Positions 26,802-60,555 of a DNA stretch of 64,000 nucleotides are shown here, one piece after another. The position numbers were made by a program, and so were the translations under genes. Every line of letters begins with the position of its first letter. Position 1 is the first letter of the stretch. The stretch is from Thermococcus sp. (lineage in GTDB: Archaea > Methanobacteriota_B > Thermococci > Thermococcales > Thermococcaceae), in the NCBI RefSeq assembly GCF_017656495.1, contig NZ_JACDNS010000010.1, forward strand, positions 1-64,000, read 5' to 3'. The notes under the pieces were generated by a model. It did no database searches and was not told where the DNA came from. It worked only from the letters and a program-made list of their open reading frames with translations.

Positions 26802-27662
26802 TTGTGGTGCGGTGGCCGGGATTTGAACCCGGGTCACCGGCTTGGGAGAGCGTTAAATCTCAATGAACTGTGGAATCTTCATCAAAGGCAGTTCTCAGAA
26901 TGGCTCTCTGGTCAAGTGAGCAACTCTACAGCGAAAGACTACTTAAGCGTGCTCAATCGCTTCTTTGGTCGCTATAAGATTAGCTCATTTGAGGACCTCA
27001 GAAAGGCATTAAACGCTGAGAACTATAAGAGGAATCTTGCGAAAGCGCTCAGGAATTTCGTTAAGTATCTGTATCTGCATGACGTAATCAGCTTTGAGCT
27101 TTATGAGAAGTTTAAGGCAATCATCAAGATAAAGAAGGCAGGAGCTTCAAGGACGTTCATAACTGATGAGGAGCTGAGGGAGGCATACGGCTACTTCAAG
27201 AAGCATGGCAGAAGAGAGGAGCTGATCCTCTTCAAGCTCTTGCTCTTCAGCGGGCTAAGGCTAACTCATGCGATTAAGGTTCTCAATGAGTTTGATAGGA
27301 AAAAGCTGACGGTTCTCGGAAACATAGCAAAGTATGAGCTTTTCACTCACGAGGGGACGAAGCTTGCTTATTATGCATACATGCCTAAAGAGCTTGCTGA
27401 GGAGCTCTTCAAGTCAGATTACAGCTATGACATGGCTAAGAAGTATTTGAGGTATGGCAGAGTTACAGCAAAGAGCATTCGCAAGTGGTTCGCAACGTTC
27501 CTAATCAAGCAGAATGTTCCTCCTTCAGTCATTAACTACATTCAAGGCAGAGTCCCGCAGAAGGTCCTTGATGCCTATTATGCTGAACTGGAAAATCTTG
27601 CCGATGAAGCTTATTCTCGTGTTGTTGATGAGTTAAAGAAGGTGCTGGAGGGGTCTGAATGA
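26802..27662 (+). CDS. int: int(C): C-terminal catalytic part of the split SSV-type integrase
   Basis: Tyrosine recombinase catalytic domain with Arg in LLLFSGLRLTHA (about 153 in this frame), K-x-x-R in AKSIRKWFA (about 224-227, in place of the usual H-x-x-R) and the tyrosine nucleophile in LDAYYAELE (about 259-260). A SAM-like N domain lies near 25-95. The first 16 residues (CGGRDLNPGHRLGR) are only the antisense translation of the tRNA. An in-frame TTG at 26802 could start a truncated protein, but without the int(N) RHH-like domain it is probably inactive until excision. Its stop overlaps the next start by 4 bp. Confidence 0.9.
   Translation: MWCGGRDLNPGHRLGRALNLNELWNLHQRQFSEWLSGQVSNSTAKDYLSVLNRFFGRYKISSFEDLRKALNAENYKRNLAKALRNFVKYLYLHDVISFELYEKFKAIIKIKKAGASRTFITDEELREAYGYFKKHGRREELILFKLLLFSGLRLTHAIKVLNEFDRKKLTVLGNIAKYELFTHEGTKLAYYAYMPKELAEELFKSDYSYDMAKKYLRYGRVTAKSIRKWFATFLIKQNVPPSVINYIQGRVPQKVLDAYYAELENLADEAYSRVVDELKKVLEGSE
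26805..26848. repeat. attL, 44-bp copy carrying the 3' part of tRNA-Gly
   Basis: Identical to 54353-54396. From 26809 it holds the 40 nt of the tRNA (minus strand) running from the anticodon loop to the 3' end; the 5' half is absent, so this is a displaced tRNA fragment and not a functional gene. Identity ends where the sequence reads AGCG here and GCCG at attR. The preceding base also differs (G here, A at attR). Confidence 0.93.
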
Positions 27663-28686: not shown

Positions 28687-28863
28687 ATGTTGGCGAAAAG
28701 GAGGGCTCAAGGCGCTTTGGAGTATCTCTTCATGGTTGCAGCAGCTCTGATAGTAATCCTGATTGTCGTCAAGATGCTGAGGGGCAAGACTGCCGAGGCT
28801 AAGGAAGTTATTGTGCAAAACAACGCAACTAAGGAGCTTCAAGAGCTTGCAAACGAAGCATGA
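28687..28863 (+). CDS. class III signal-peptide, pilin-like protein
   Basis: 58 aa. The N-terminus reads AKRRAQGALEYLFMVAAAL: a basic head, the A/Q cleavage region, the G-A-L-E-Y motif with Glu+5 and a 20-residue hydrophobic helix, as in archaeal class III signal-peptide (type IV pilin-like) precursors processed by EppA/FlaK-type peptidases. The mature remainder is short and charged. ATG 28687 follows GGAGGTGAAA. First gene of the long rightward operon. It may form a pilus or pseudopilus core, or serve as a scaffold subunit. Confidence 0.78.
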   Translation: MLAKRRAQGALEYLFMVAAALIVILIVVKMLRGKTAEAKEVIVQNNATKELQELANEA

Positions 28864-28873
28864 GGTGAAGAAA

Positions 28874-40396: not shown

Positions 40397-40439
40397 AAAT
40401 TTAAATACAATTGTATTACAATTGTATTTGGTGAGATTA
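40397..40439 (+). promoter_or_regulatory. toxin-antitoxin promoter with two TACAATTGTA palindromes
   Basis: AAATTTAAAT (40397-40406) is a TATA element. Two perfect 10-bp palindromes TACAATTGTA lie at 40406-40415 and 40417-40426, spaced 11 bp so they face the same side of the helix. They overlap the expected transcription start, the classical site for autorepression by an RHH antitoxin. GGTGAG at 40429-40434 is the ribosome site for ATG 40440. Confidence 0.72.
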
Positions 40440-40763
40440 ATGGCTCAAGTTGTAGAGTCTCCAGTCTCAGTGAGACTTCCAAAATACATAATCAGGAAGA
40501 TAGATGAACTCGTAAAGGAAGGTGAATTCAAAAGCCGCTCTGACTTCATCAAATACGCCGTAACACTAACACTTGGACAGATAATGATGGAGAAAGCGAG
40601 AGAAAAGGCGAAAACAATCACACCAGAAGAAGCTAAGGCGAGATCAAGGCAAGCCCTTCAGAAACTTCTAACTGAGGAGATCGAAGACGAATGGTCAGAG
40701 CTCAAGAATATTCTCGAAGATGTTGACAGGAAGTGGAAGGGGCTCAAAGGTGCAAAGAAATGA
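40440..40763 (+). CDS. RHH (CopG-like) antitoxin
   Basis: 107 aa. The N-terminal ESPVSVRLPKYIIRKIDELVKEGEFKSRSDF... stretch is a textbook ribbon-helix-helix: VSVRLP strand, two helices and the SRSDFIKYAV turn. The C-terminal half is charged and helical and would wrap the toxin. ATG 40440 has GGTGAG upstream; two palindromic operators lie in the promoter. Its stop overlaps the toxin start (ATGA), so the pair is co-translated. Type II system that could stabilise the element in the host. Confidence 0.85.
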   Translation: MAQVVESPVSVRLPKYIIRKIDELVKEGEFKSRSDFIKYAVTLTLGQIMMEKAREKAKTITPEEAKARSRQALQKLLTEEIEDEWSELKNILEDVDRKWKGLKGAKK

Positions 40764-41200
40764 AGCTCGTCATGGACACCAACGTTGTCCTAGCTGCCAT
40801 GATAAAACCAAAAGGCTTAGCTGCTCTGCTCATAGAGCTCCTTGACAAAGAGCACTTTATCAATTATACCAGTCCAGAGGCCTTGGAGGAGCTCCAAGTT
40901 AAGATGGCGATCTTAGAGGAGGAAAGAAAGCTGAGCGAAAATTGGCTACAAGTGCTTGCAAATTTCCTTTATGGAACAGAAATCGTTAAGCCAAAAGAGC
41001 ACTTCAACCTCTGCCGTGATGAGGACGACAATAAATGGCTTGACATTGCCTATGAGGCAAAGGTCCAAGTAATTCTAACATGGGACGATGATCTACTGGA
41101 TCTAAGAAATGACAAGAAAGTCTTGCAACTTAAGAACCATCAAATTAAAATCCTTAGACCAATAGAATTCCTGAAAGAAGAATTAAGAAAGAGATGTTAA
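40760..41200 (+). CDS. PIN-domain toxin ribonuclease
   Basis: 146 aa. PIN acidic residues: Asp in KLVMDTNVVLAAM, Glu in TSPEALEELQ, and Asp residues in DDNKWLDIAYEA and VILTWDDDLLDL. This matches the putative TA toxin PIN family (COG1569 type). It would cleave RNA with Mg2+ when not bound by the RHH partner. ATG 40760 overlaps the antitoxin stop by 4 bp. Convergent with the next gene. Confidence 0.85.
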   Translation: MKLVMDTNVVLAAMIKPKGLAALLIELLDKEHFINYTSPEALEELQVKMAILEEERKLSENWLQVLANFLYGTEIVKPKEHFNLCRDEDDNKWLDIAYEAKVQVILTWDDDLLDLRNDKKVLQLKNHQIKILRPIEFLKEELRKRC

Positions 41201-52576: not shown

Positions 52577-52926
52577 GCGAAGTCAAGACCCTCACAATTC
52601 AGGAAGAGGAAGACATCATTGCGAGGGCAATGGCTGAATGGGAGTCAAAGCATGTTCAGGTTCTCATTGATGATGACAGTATTCCTGAAAATGTTCACTA
52701 CCTTCCTCTCGAAAGCCTCATTGAGTTCCTTGAGCAGCAGGAAATTCCGACAAAGGTCATCATCGCTGGAGAGAACTACCTCATCAGGCTCAGGAAATAC
52801 GTTGATTATGAAGAGTTCAAGGAGTTCATTTACTCCCTCTCAGATTTTCTAAGAAGAGGGCACTGGATTAAGGCCGTCTGGAGCAAGGAGAAGAGGGCAA
52901 TTATTGTGAAGAGGTGGAGGAGGTAA
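52573..52926 (+). CDS. 117-aa protein of unknown function
   Basis: GAGGTAAGAGAAG is the ribosome site; ATG 52573 overlaps the previous stop. Helix TIQEEEDIIARAMAEWESKH, then strand-rich VQVLIDDDSIP and KVIIAGENYLIRLRKYVDY, ending in a basic segment (WSKEKRAIIVKRWRR) that could touch nucleic acid. Followed 2 bp later by the nuclease-like gene. Confidence 0.52.
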   Translation: MSEVKTLTIQEEEDIIARAMAEWESKHVQVLIDDDSIPENVHYLPLESLIEFLEQQEIPTKVIIAGENYLIRLRKYVDYEEFKEFIYSLSDFLRRGHWIKAVWSKEKRAIIVKRWRR

Positions 52927-52928
52927 GG

Positions 52929-53459
52929 ATGGCGAGCAGGACTGAGCTTGTTTATAATTCTTCAATTTCGCTTGATTTTGTTGAGACTTTCACGTACAGG
53001 CATTCGAGGGATGTGTTCAATAGGCTCAGGTTGAGCAGGATTCTTGAGGAAGCCCGGAGGATGGCTTCCCGTAGGATTCCAGTGTATGTTAGTGATGTGG
53101 ATTCACTAATGATGCAGTATTTTGACAATGGAAGGAGAAGGCGTTTCATTGCCTTTGAGCTGAAGAACATGCGCCCTGACGTTGCACTCATTGGCAGGCA
53201 TGTGAAGGTGAATGGAAAGCAGTATGAGCTGCATTATTACTTCAGCCGCATGGCCGGCATTGACTTCTACTACCTTGTTAGGGTTGGCAAGGAGTACTTC
53301 TTGTGGAACATTGCACGGGCTCCTGTGAAGTTTGAGTGGTTGGGGAGCAGAGAGAGGGGAACTTATGACTATTACGCTCTTGTTCCTAAGGATTATGTTG
53401 CTCAGATTCCCGAGGACGAGCTCCCACGCTACCTGAGGGATTTAATCTTTGAGGGATGA
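52929..53459 (+). CDS. candidate PD-(D/E)XK nuclease-fold protein
   Basis: 176 aa from ATG 52929, with GAGGTGGAGGAGGT upstream. The central motif is PVYVSDVDSLMMQYFDNG (Asp56/Asp58) followed 19-21 residues later by FIAFELKNMRP (Glu77-x-Lys79), the D...E-x-K spacing of the PD-(D/E)XK superfamily. Upstream helices and downstream strands (YELHYYFSRMAGIDFYYLVR) fit. No family name recognised; could process replication or recombination intermediates of the element. Last gene of the tight right-hand operon. Confidence 0.55.
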   Translation: MASRTELVYNSSISLDFVETFTYRHSRDVFNRLRLSRILEEARRMASRRIPVYVSDVDSLMMQYFDNGRRRRFIAFELKNMRPDVALIGRHVKVNGKQYELHYYFSRMAGIDFYYLVRVGKEYFLWNIARAPVKFEWLGSRERGTYDYYALVPKDYVAQIPEDELPRYLRDLIFEG

Positions 53460-53471
53460 TGAAGATGAATC

Positions 53472-53548
53472 TTAACTTTCGTATGAAAGTTAACGCAAAA
53501 ACAAGCCCTTTCGATAACTTTCTTTTTGGTTCCAGAGAGAAAGTTAAC
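53472..53548. repeat. two inverted repeats of TTAACTTTC/GAAAGTTAA before the second recombinase
   Basis: TTAACTTTC (53472-53480), GTAT, GAAAGTTAAC (53485-53494) is a tight 9-bp inverted repeat. ATAACTTTC (53514-53522) and GAAAGTTAAC (53539-53548) form a second one with a 16-nt spacer. Four half-sites lie within 77 bp of non-coding DNA just upstream of a stand-alone tyrosine recombinase. They could be its recombination or regulatory binding sites. Confidence 0.7.
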
Positions 53549-53563
53549 ATTTAGGTGATTTCC

Positions 53564-54082
53564 ATGGTTAAGCCATTCGCTTGGGATAAAGGTTTGGACT
53601 ACATGAAGACTTACAAACTTATCCTGGACCACTACCGGAACACAAACAGAGACACATCCAAAGCTTATGACATCATACTCTTGACTCAGCTTAGAAATGG
53701 ATCCAGGTTGACTGAAGCAATAAACTTCCTCAACACAATCATTGAGACAAAGCCATTCAAGAGGCAGGCTTACATCAAGGTAGAGAAGCGTAAGGATGGC
53801 TACGAGAGGCTTATGATTCTTCCGGAGGAAATCAGCAAGCAGGAGCTGATGAGGGTATCTTATGTCATCAAGGAAGCCAACAAGTGGAAGGTCTCAAACT
53901 ACTGCAGAAGGACCTATGGATTCAATACTCATGCCTTGAGATATGCCTTGATATCATATCTTTCTCAAAAAGGCGTTGCTCCTCAGTTGATTGCCAAAAT
54001 CACTGGACATAAGACGCTTGATTACATCCTATACTACACACAACAGCAGAAAGCTGAGGAGCTACTCAAGGACCTGAGGTGA
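53564..54082 (+). CDS. second, stand-alone tyrosine recombinase (catalytic domain only)
   Basis: 172 aa from ATG 53564 after AGGTGATTTCC. Catalytic residues in order: Arg in LRNGSRLTEA, Lys in IKVEKRKDGYE, H-x-x-R in FNTHALRYALISYL, His/Gly in ITGHKTLDYI and Tyr in LYYTQQQ. It lacks the N-terminal core-binding domain of XerA-type enzymes. Distinct in sequence from the split integrase of the same element. May resolve multimers, invert DNA or assist excision. Upstream inverted repeats are likely its sites. Confidence 0.8.
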   Translation: MVKPFAWDKGLDYMKTYKLILDHYRNTNRDTSKAYDIILLTQLRNGSRLTEAINFLNTIIETKPFKRQAYIKVEKRKDGYERLMILPEEISKQELMRVSYVIKEANKWKVSNYCRRTYGFNTHALRYALISYLSQKGVAPQLIAKITGHKTLDYILYYTQQQKAEELLKDLR

Positions 54083-54136: not shown

Positions 54137-54409
54137 ATGGAGGAATCCTCCACAAACTCCATTAAAAATAGGGGCTCTCATTCAAGAGGAAAGCGCCAGA
54201 AAAGTCGAAAGAAAGACGTTCACATCACGCTTGATAGTGAGGTGGTCGGTGTCATGGAGAGGATGAACATTAACAAGTCGGAATTCTTCAACAGCGTTGC
54301 GAGATGGGTGTTTTTGGGTGAAGAAATTCCAGAAATTATTATAAGATTAGAATGGTGCGGTGGCCGGGATTTGAACCCGGGTCACCGGCTTGGGAGGCCG
54401 GTGTCCTAG
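54137..54409 (+). CDS. int: int(N): N-terminal part of the split integrase
   Basis: 90 aa. A basic head (RGSHSRGKRQKSRKKD) and an RHH-like domain (DVHITLDSEVVGVMERMNIN, then KSEFFNSVARWVFLG) form the N-terminus of the SSV-type integrase. It runs into attR, where WCGGRDLNPGHRLGR is the antisense translation of the tRNA, and stops within the tRNA 5' half. Joining it to int(C) at the 44-bp repeat keeps the frame and gives 357 aa. TATATAGTATTATGG upstream holds a plausible promoter. Confidence 0.88.
   Translation: MEESSTNSIKNRGSHSRGKRQKSRKKDVHITLDSEVVGVMERMNINKSEFFNSVARWVFLGEEIPEIIIRLEWCGGRDLNPGHRLGRPVS
54353..54396. repeat. attR, 44-bp copy inside the intact tRNA-Gly gene
   Basis: Identical to 26805-26848. 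It extends from 4 bp beyond the tRNA 3' end through the T arm, variable region and anticodon stem to the anticodon loop. The element therefore carries the tRNA 3' half as attP within int, and integration at the right restores a complete tRNA gene. Confidence 0.93.
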
Positions 54410-54430
54410 ACCAGGCTAGACTACCACCGC
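54357..54430 (-). tRNA. tRNA-Gly (CCC anticodon)
   Basis: 74 nt on the minus strand. The acceptor stem GCGGTGG pairs with CCACCGC at the 3' end; the D arm, anticodon stem CCGGC/GCCGG with loop CTCCCAA (anticodon CCC at positions 34-36) and T loop GGTTCAAATCC are all regular. No intron, CCA not encoded. Serves as the integration target; only its 3' 40 nt are repeated at attL. Confidence 0.96.
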
Positions 54431-58869: not shown

Positions 58870-60555
58870 CTAACGCTTTCCAGCTTTCATTCTCTCTTGC
58901 AACTCATACAGCTGTGCAATCCTTTCTAAAGTGTCAGCATCTTCTGGACTTTTATCATCTCTTAAAGCCACGTATCTTGGGAATCTCAATGCAAAGCCGC
59001 TCTCGTACTTTGGACTCTTTTGAATCTCTTGGTATGTAACTTCAATTACTACCTTGGGCTCTATTTCTACGAATTTTCCTTTCTCTTTCTTTATGAGAGG
59101 CTTAAGCATTTTTGTGAACTCAATTAAGTCTTCATCTGTAAATCCACTGCCCACTTTTCCAACTGGGACGAAAGTCCCAGTGCCAGGGTCGTAAGCACCA
59201 AGCAGGAAAGAGCTTAGGACATGTGCCCTCCTTCCTTCTCCCCATTCTGCTCCAATGATTACCAAATCAAGGTTCTCCATTGTTGGCTTGATCTTGAGCC
59301 ACTTTTTACCTCTGTTACCTGGCTCGTAAACAGCATCTAAACGCTTAGCCATCAAGCCTTCATGCCCCATGTCGAGGGCTTTATGATAAAATTCTTCAGC
59401 TTCTTCTGGGCTTTTGGTTATCAAGTTCTCTGCAACTTTAATCCACTGATTAGCTTCAACTATGCTCTCTAATTTTTTGCGACGCTCGATAAAAGGAGTA
59501 TCAATTAAGTTTTCCCCATCAACGTAGAGGACATCAAATAAATTAAGCTCTAAGGGTATTTTCTCAATCATCTCTTGGATGTTGTACTTTCTCCTAAATC
59601 TTCTCAAAACATATTGGAACGGCCTTGGCCTTCCCCCTTCTCCAACTGCTACAAGTTCTCCTTCAACTATAGCTTTTTCTGGTTTTATACTCTTTCTTAT
59701 CCTCTCAACGACCTCTGGAATGGACTTTGTAACGTTCTCTAGTCTTCTGGAATAGATAATTACTTTATCCCCGTCTTTATGGACTTGAACTCTCGCACCG
59801 TCGTATTTAATTTCAAACTCTGCTTCGCCTCCCATCTCGATTAAGGCCTCTCTGACATTAGTAGCCATTTGAGCGAGCATTGGCTTTATGGGCTTTCCGA
59901 TCTGGATTGTGACCTTTGACAGTCCTTCATTTCCTTCAAGCTTGGCTATTTTTGTAACAAATCCAAAATCGCTTGTTAACATATAGGCTCTCTCAACAAG
60001 CTCAACCTTAACTTTGAATGCTTCGGCTATTGCATCTCTCAAGAGTCCTTCTGCAACTCCTGTTCTCATTGTTCCGAGAATTGTTCTTGCCAAATACTTC
60101 CCCTCAATCGGTTCAGCATCCATGAAAAGGTTTGCAAGATATTTAAGCTTCCTGTCTTGGCTTCCTTCCCCAGTGGTTTCCGCAACTTTTACAAGAGTTT
60201 TGTAAACCCTCTTTATTGTCAAAGGCTGGCCAAAAAAGCTCTTCTGTCTCCTTTTTTGAAGGGCTAATGCGACACTCTCACCCAAATCGCCAGTGTCCTT
60301 TACCGAGTTCTCTATCCATTCTGCATTAATACCGGTTGCCATTGCAACTGCTCTAATAAGGAGCTTTTCACCAACTCCTAATTCCCTTTCGTCCCAATCT
60401 GGAAAGACCTTTCCCAGAATGAGGTAGGGTACAATTTCCAAAAGCTCCTCATCCTCAACTTTCTTGAGAAAATCAGCGACAAATCTTGTTTTTAAAGTCT
60501 TAAGTGTTGTTTTTTCCAGCCTTCTATATAACTCGGCTAACTCTTTGTACAGCAT
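58870..60555 (-). CDS. lig: ATP-dependent DNA ligase
   Basis: 561 aa, the usual length for Thermococcales ligase. N-terminal DNA-binding domain (1-215), adenylation domain with the AMP-accepting Lys250 in [14 protein letters not shown], then motifs III-V ([33 protein letters not shown] in part) and an OB domain with [17 protein letters not shown]. Seals nicks in replication and repair at high temperature. ATG 60555; GGTGGTGAGTT upstream. Confidence 0.96.

Follow-up and report, generated by a model that had tools for sequence, protein, structure and literature searches.

A catalytic-domain-only tyrosine recombinase and its predicted composite site of four half-sites in archaeal plasmids and bicaudaviruses

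The locus at 53472–54082 of a 64,000-nucleotide stretch from Thermococcus sp. (contig NZ_JACDNS010000010.1, positions 1 to 64,000; hereafter the window) would form a compact site-specific recombination unit, made up of a tyrosine recombinase with a catalytic domain only and a composite site to which this enzyme would bind. Judging from the sequences of the locus and its relatives, we consider with moderate confidence that the site is a resolvase site of the res/irs kind, that it also serves for module exchange at its first pair of half-sites (site 1), and that autoregulation is probable. The recombinase gene (53564..54082, forward strand, 172 aa) is preceded by the predicted recombination or binding site (53472..53547, forward strand, 76 bp), whose geometry of a 6-bp core, a 42-bp distance and a 17–19-bp spacer is common to distant plasmids and viruses.

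In the window, site 1 is formed by half-site A (TTAACTTT, 53472..53479, forward strand) as left arm, an asymmetric 6-bp core CGTATG (53480..53485, forward strand), which appears in the inverted form CATACG in pGE2 and other elements, and half-site B as right arm (53486..53493, reverse strand, AAAGTTAA on the forward strand). The left arm of site 2, half-site C (ATAACTTT, 53514..53521, forward strand), starts 42 bp after A and is separated by an 18-bp spacer from the right arm, half-site D (53540..53547, reverse strand, again AAAGTTAA on the forward strand). The inverted repeats with 4- and 16-nt spacers that the sequence-only reading had placed left of the gene are present as described, 53472–53493 reading TTAACTTTC-GTAT-GAAAGTTAA and 53515–53547 reading TAACTTTC-N16-GAAAGTTAA. 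The 8-mer TAACTTTC occurs ten times in the 64 kb (4.3 expected; 2 of 100 shuffles reached 10), and four of the ten occurrences fall within 75 bp. By eye, a short open frame of 29 codons plus stop (53465..53554, forward strand) extends over the composite site in the recombinase frame; a stop separates the two in the window, and the corresponding frame over site 1 in G084 (L011/L051) is fused in frame to the recombinase, giving 202–204 aa.

The geometry was searched for irrespective of sequence by scoring any four 8-mers A, B, C and D for mutual agreement, with the core left unscored. Both strands of the window yielded one match of at least 36 (45 of 48, at 53472), and 20 block-shuffled windows, scanned on one strand each, yielded none. 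Regions upstream of more distant Thermococcales recombinases (a second subtype, 53–55% identity) displayed other letters at equal spacing. The observed score was not reached in 60 shuffles per locus for 14 loci, comprising the window and its close relatives (window 45, pGE2 45, G030 45, G053 39, G084 39), the second subtype (G049 40, G002 37, G046 37, G017 43) and viral loci (ATV 45, L091 38, L092 42, L100/SMV1 38, L102 42). The G031 site is degenerate (score 30, matched by 7 of 60 shuffles), and in pMEFER01 no composite site rose above chance, the score of 33 coming from other distances and being reached in 5 of 60 shuffles. When core, distance and spacer were all left free, all 11 loci tried had their best A-to-C distance at 42 bp. 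Core lengths of 4–8 were best, tied or near-best, because the arms can shift symmetrically; the window scored highest at a core of 4 (48 versus 45 at 6).

For the viruses, 650 bp upstream of the recombinase was tested in L055 and 14 of the 18 IMG/VR loci. Ten of these 15 stretches held no significant site within 650 bp; scans of the whole locus or genome recovered it in eight of the ten, with L089 and L096 staying negative. The site lies farther upstream in L093, L094, L095, L097, L099 and ATSV (whole-locus scan), 1–3 kb from the recombinase gene in several viruses. No composite site was detected in six of the 18 IMG/VR loci (L089, L096, L098, L101, L103 and L104), each with at most 1.1 kb upstream. 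Unlike in the window, the site is not adjacent to the recombinase in STSV1 and STSV2 but about 30 kb from the gene; that of STSV1 (28792–28867, score 37) is intergenic, with the integrase gene at 59318–59809, that of STSV2 scores 40, and both cores read CGGCCC. The scan of ATV covered 45,000 bases and the last 4.5 kb, and that of STSV2 covered 30 kb and a further 8.5 kb surrounding the integrase. Across 794,040 bases of overlapping loci, both strands, there were 20 distinct matches of at least 37, of which 19 fell in recombinase-bearing loci and the remaining one was a chance coding match. Each sequence scanned, including pGE2, carried one composite copy.

The R-HxxR-H-Y catalytic set previously read from the 172-aa open reading frame is borne out by alignment, in which all 15 homologues share R48, H123, R126, H149 and Y158; position 77 is K in 13 of 15 and position 75 in 10 of 15. 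The window recombinase scored 23.7 bits with PF00589, under the gathering cut-off of 27.1, which the homologues from pMEFER01 (37.1) and ATV (28.2) exceed; with PF16795 (SSV-type Int) it scored 18.5 against 27 bits. An AF2 model built from an alignment of 16 sequences (pLDDT 84.4, pTM 0.83) has the catalytic domains of XerH, HP1 Int and SSV1 Int, and Cre, among its best PDB matches, with only 5 of 275 matches reaching E 0.001 and with high rmsd values. The modelled fold is that of a tyrosine recombinase catalytic domain.

Of 94 Thermococcales genomes, 11 gave recombinase matches, which in two consisted of fragments only. The close relatives (pGE2, G030, G053 and G084) share 81–94% identity with the window protein, pGE2 93.6%; the second subtype (G049, G031, G002 and G017, with G046 as a fifth member outside the alignment) shares 53–55%. 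The pMEFER01 homologue, at about 45–46% identity, is the sole annotated tyrosine recombinase of that plasmid. Homologues from bicaudaviruses (STSV1/2, SMV1, ATV and ATSV) are 35–39% identical over at least 95% of the window protein (STSV1/2 and SMV1: 35.9% over 95–96%), 34–38% in the alignment of homologues, and mostly annotated as integrases; compared with the window recombinase, the ATV, SMV1 and ATSV proteins have about 70 extra N-terminal residues. The window protein alone retrieved no relative from the viral contigs, and the alignment used as query did. By an identity of at least 30% over 60% of the protein, taken pairwise here as against the clustering of Badel et al., this is the already published family of STSV/SMV integrases (Badel et al. 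2021, PMC8371274), for which the parts of that paper dealing with the family report no Pfam domain and describe no site. These integrases have the same catalytic residues and composite site as the window.

The half-sites follow the recombinase lineage with their spacing kept. All five loci of the window's subtype have TTAACTTT, 4 of 5 second-subtype loci have TTAACTTA/TGAACTTA, 10 of 18 IMG/VR loci have TTCGCTTT-like half-sites, with a TCCGCTTT-like form in ATSV, and STSV1 and STSV2 have TTATCTTT; individual half-sites deviate from the consensus, C most often. Such joint change at fixed spacing points to a single protein binding all four, presumably the recombinase, and agrees with the earlier proposal that a catalytic-domain-only recombinase here adjoins what are very probably its own sites.

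Site 1 also occurs without the recombinase. A search of the 94 Thermococcales genomes with the arms fixed to at most two mismatches found 18 loci in 16 genomes, whereas the reversed control pattern found none; since the pattern fixed the arms, arm conservation at these loci is partly ascertainment. The exact site-1 pattern had no match in the viral contigs. The 18 genome loci and pGE2 make 19 loci, of which 17 were compared; G050 was dropped because it does not differ from G044 across the 2,170 bases aligned, and G074 because it is a CRISPR spacer. This spacer (L049, G074:C16, 732–753) matches site 1 at 18 of 20 specified letters and also resembles the leader after site 1 in recombinase-type elements. 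The 17 loci have a common layout of variable left genes, site 1, a module and the end carrying IntN, the N-terminal part of the split integrase, which tblastn located no farther than 1.6 kb to the right of site 1 in 11 of 17 and which, where the stretch was not too short, was placed by eye from the ORF lists in the rest. The module is the recombinase in five, a gene of about 117 aa in nine and another module in three, so that 12 of 17 have site 1 without recombinase or site 2. Among loci with the 117-aa gene found by protein search, 10 have site 1 with at most two mismatches, eight have nothing site-1-like within 300 bp (best 7–10 mismatches), and 12 of 30 were left unscored as the start pattern missed the gene. 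By eye, further dyads (GATAMTAAC...GTTATTATC-like plus a second one) are visible in the leader of the 117-aa gene in L036, L038, L040, L041, L044, L045, L046 and L050; they overlap a small ORF and may represent another composite binding site. A second element may be present in the window's genome, where a gene distantly related to the 117-aa one lies on a different contig (G000:C23:3650-3883).

The core itself occurs in both orientations. CATACG was present in nine of the 17 element loci and its reverse complement CGTATG in eight, with no other combination, although the search pattern left two variable core positions free. Second-subtype and viral cores read CGGCTC, CGGCCA, CGACCC, CGGCCC, CGGCCT and CGCCCC, and inverted cores were observed in G017 (pattern match with 2 mismatches, on the strand opposite to the gene) and ATSV (GGGGCG). 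Parallel exchange keeps the core orientation relative to the right flank, so inversion would need antiparallel exchange, with two mismatches, or strand switching; the inverted cores may thus have arisen by antiparallel exchange or by strand switching in the palindrome during replication.

The DNA flanking site 1 is mosaic. G022 and G084 share the left gene (87%, −325 to +22) and G025 and G028 the left DNA (72%, −402 to +23) with different right modules, while G022/G044 and G028/G061 share the right module with different adjacent left DNA. Among 41 Thermococcales alignments touching site 1, 29 start and seven end there (five of the seven spanning only 30–54 columns) and five begin 16–21 bp to the left; none combines an extension beyond 25 bp on the left with one beyond 40 bp on the right. 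Of the 28 viral alignments listed, three cross site 1 and 25 have their start no more than 15 bp from its left edge, at −1 or 0 in 21 cases; no ATV alignment touched the site. Site 1 thus appears to be a place where plasmids swap gene blocks, with the qualification that the breakpoints also match gene boundaries, so gene-wise shuffling could mimic exchange. An integron-like array, considered because G084 and G022 have a common gene left of site 1, was rejected: there is one site-1 copy per contig, and no second copy follows the upstream "MASR" gene in 10 loci.

These features are most readily compared with the sites of Tn3-family resolvases, such as irs of Tn4430 (TnpI) and rst of Tn4651 (TnpS/TnpT), as presented in PMC7157771. 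Like the window site, irs and rst have four sub-sites near the recombinase gene; their crossover is at one inverted pair, as proposed here for site 1. The second pair of the window type is inverted at 17–19 bp spacing, whereas the repeats of irs are direct; in rst both pairs are inverted, but TnpT takes part. The mini-recombinase also differs from the Tn3-family systems in having no N-terminal domain. Tn3 resolvase sites sit in a transposon with a transposase; the element here resembles pT26-2, with its Int split at a tRNA, and no transposase was noted in it. The composite site would work like a known class, the resolvase with accessory sites, and is not filed as a Tn3-family member. Site 1 resembles dif of the Thermococcales XerA system in having inverted arms, a 6-bp spacer and a tyrosine recombinase, but dif as reported in PMC2958812 lies on the chromosome and consists of one 28-bp site with no counterpart of site 2. 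XerA has two domains, whereas the window recombinase has 172 aa and was not reported by the XerA model NF040815 (NCBIfam) at E 0.01. With a view to possible action of the host XerA on site 1, a putative P. abyssi dif sequence was compared with the window's genome, where it had no match at up to 3 mismatches.

On the resolvase reading, site 1 (A, 6-bp core, B), with its dif-type geometry, would be the crossover site, strand exchange probably taking place in the core. The half-sites of site 2 (C, 18 bp, D) are spaced unsuitably for strand exchange, and site 2 would act as an accessory site of the kind known from res, irs and rst. The enzyme would recombine two copies of the site in a multimer or cointegrate of the circular element, returning monomers. 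We favour this role because there is one site per sequence, the accessory half-sites have the sequence of the core half-sites, and the enzyme coexists with a dedicated integrase. The recombinase bound to its site would in addition repress its own promoter; in viral sites a TATA-like stretch lies by eye between B and C and D abuts an ATG, which makes autoregulation likely too, as in resolvase systems, res and irs having promoters within the site in the account of PMC7157771. Such control of the recombinase gene cannot be the role of the STSV1 site, and in STSV1/2, with about 30 kb between site and gene, the site must be more than an autoregulatory operator. A pure resolvase does not explain why site 1 is kept without recombinase or site 2 in 12 of 17 loci. 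The missing site in pMEFER01 and the degenerate one in G031 also count against this reading. Recombination between different elements at site 1, exchanging the flanking DNA, would be a by-product; Tn3-family transposons likewise exchange modules, with homology breaking at res site I (PMC7157771, in its treatment of module exchange).

The main rival is that the enzyme is an integrase, the composite site serving as attP for insertion of the circle at a simple attB and lone site 1 being attB-like or a leftover. The 12 of 17 elements with site 1 but no site 2 would suit this, as would the left edge of viral homology, which mostly coincides with that of half-site A, and the integrase annotation of most viral homologues. 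ATV is described as integrating, "probably facilitated by" the homologous integrase, in the passage on its lysogeny in PMC12662068, and pMEFER01, whose only annotated tyrosine recombinase is the homologue, is listed with a type II integrase. Yet pMEFER01 is a free plasmid for which the listing in PMC6972569 gives no target tRNA, and no contig among the 94 genomes, many of them fragmented, held two copies of site 1. Moreover, a tRNA integrase with a 44-bp att of its own is already present in the window's element, and the G002 element has two other tyrosine recombinases, besides the mini-recombinase and a PrimPol replication protein (PF09250; L114 5368-14462). A separate integrase co-occurs with the mini-recombinase in two plasmid types, window/pGE2 and G002, the only second-subtype element examined. 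Lambda-type arm sites differ in sequence from core half-sites, whereas here the accessory half-sites have the core half-site sequence. We regard an integrase as unlikely, if still worth weighing.

The dedicated integrase is that of a pT26-2-type element, whose closest relative found is pGE2 and which extends from the att copy at 26805 to tRNA-Gly at 54353-54430. As proposed from the sequence, it is a split SSV-type integrase: IntC (26802..27662, forward strand) matches PF16795 at E 1.2e-46, and IntN (54137..54409, forward strand), without a Pfam match, is assigned by its position and by matching the ends of other elements. The 44-bp att direct repeat lies at 54353-54396 inside tRNA-Gly (no strand assigned) and at 26805-26848. 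Besides IntC/IntN, the element has genes that match those of pGE2 and pMEFER01 in unchanged order. For Thermococcales members of the pT26-2 family a tRNA-directed integrase is described in PMC6972569, where the text on pGE2 held no mention that we found of a second, small recombinase. The mini-recombinase gene is uninterrupted in the integrated element, unlike the SSV-type (type I) integrase with attP in its gene. The further suggestion that the small enzyme supplies the activity lost when int is split is not supported, as the 44-bp tRNA-Gly repeat contains none of the window's TAACTTTC matches and pGE2 (Pyrococcus abyssi) carries a separate, full-length Int gene together with the mini-recombinase. 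Plasmid pGE2 (family described in PMC6972569) has the same composite site and a 93.6% identical recombinase, but its core is inverted and the DNA directly left of site 1 differs. The MASR gene (52914..53459, forward strand) is immediately upstream of site 1 in the window and G007, whereas 0.4–1.7 kb of cargo separates them in the eight other loci found by motif search, and about 1.1 kb in pGE2. Elsewhere in the window (40422-41200), adjacent small genes give the impression of a VapB/VapC-type toxin-antitoxin pair.

Alternatively, the recombinase or another regulator might bind the four half-sites for transcription control without recombination. The TATA-like stretches between B and C and the D half-sites abutting an ATG in viral sites, seen by eye, accord with an operator, and site 2 of the window lies just upstream of the recombinase start. 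A simple repressor site, which the sequence-only reading had set against its own proposal, nevertheless does not fit STSV1/2 given the distance of some 30 kb to the gene; site 1 stands upstream of other modules in 12 of 17 elements, a dif-like asymmetric core is kept in both orientations, and the catalytic residues are invariant in 15 of 15. An operator alone is thus improbable.

Far less credible is coding conservation, in which the 22-bp repeat would encode the first residues of a small protein ([VLIF]NF-RM/HT-x-V-[NK]), making the palindrome incidental. All 17 compared loci allow site 1 to be read through in a single open frame, and an ATG frequently overlaps the preceding stop. A codon-by-codon look at these loci spoke against it: with the arms partly fixed by the search, the second V is GTT and F is TTT in 17 of 17, the N codon is AAC in 15, AAT in one and CGC in one; RM and HT switch jointly with no intermediate, and other lineages retain the geometry with different letters.

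A DNA invertase or excisionase that flips part of the element, suggested by inverted half-sites next to a small tyrosine recombinase, as with FimB/FimE, can practically be discounted, and with it the inversion proposed earlier, since the window has a single composite site and its genome one site-1 locus at up to 2 mismatches, pGE2 also having one.

A broader proposal, which we put forward tentatively, is that the fixed 6/42/18 platform of four half-sites provides topologically selective recombination in archaeal plasmids and bicaudaviruses of different phyla, that site 1 has spread without the enzyme as a docking point for swaps of cargo and terminal modules in trans, and that occasional antiparallel exchange inverts the core. 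In the literature surveyed we found no earlier description of a composite site for an STSV/SMV-type recombinase, and no report dealing with the attachment site of ATV or with archaeal resolvases that consist of the catalytic domain alone. For the so-called integrase that large spindle-shaped archaeal viruses share with several plasmids, there is now a predicted 76-bp substrate at about 20 loci. The shared geometry suggests a common system for recombining such genomes and keeping them single-copy. If this is true, the enzyme would be a resolvase stripped to its catalytic domain, which could offer a small heat-stable recombinase with its site, would help explain the monomeric state of these circular genomes and would identify a common gene-exchange point between archaeal plasmids.
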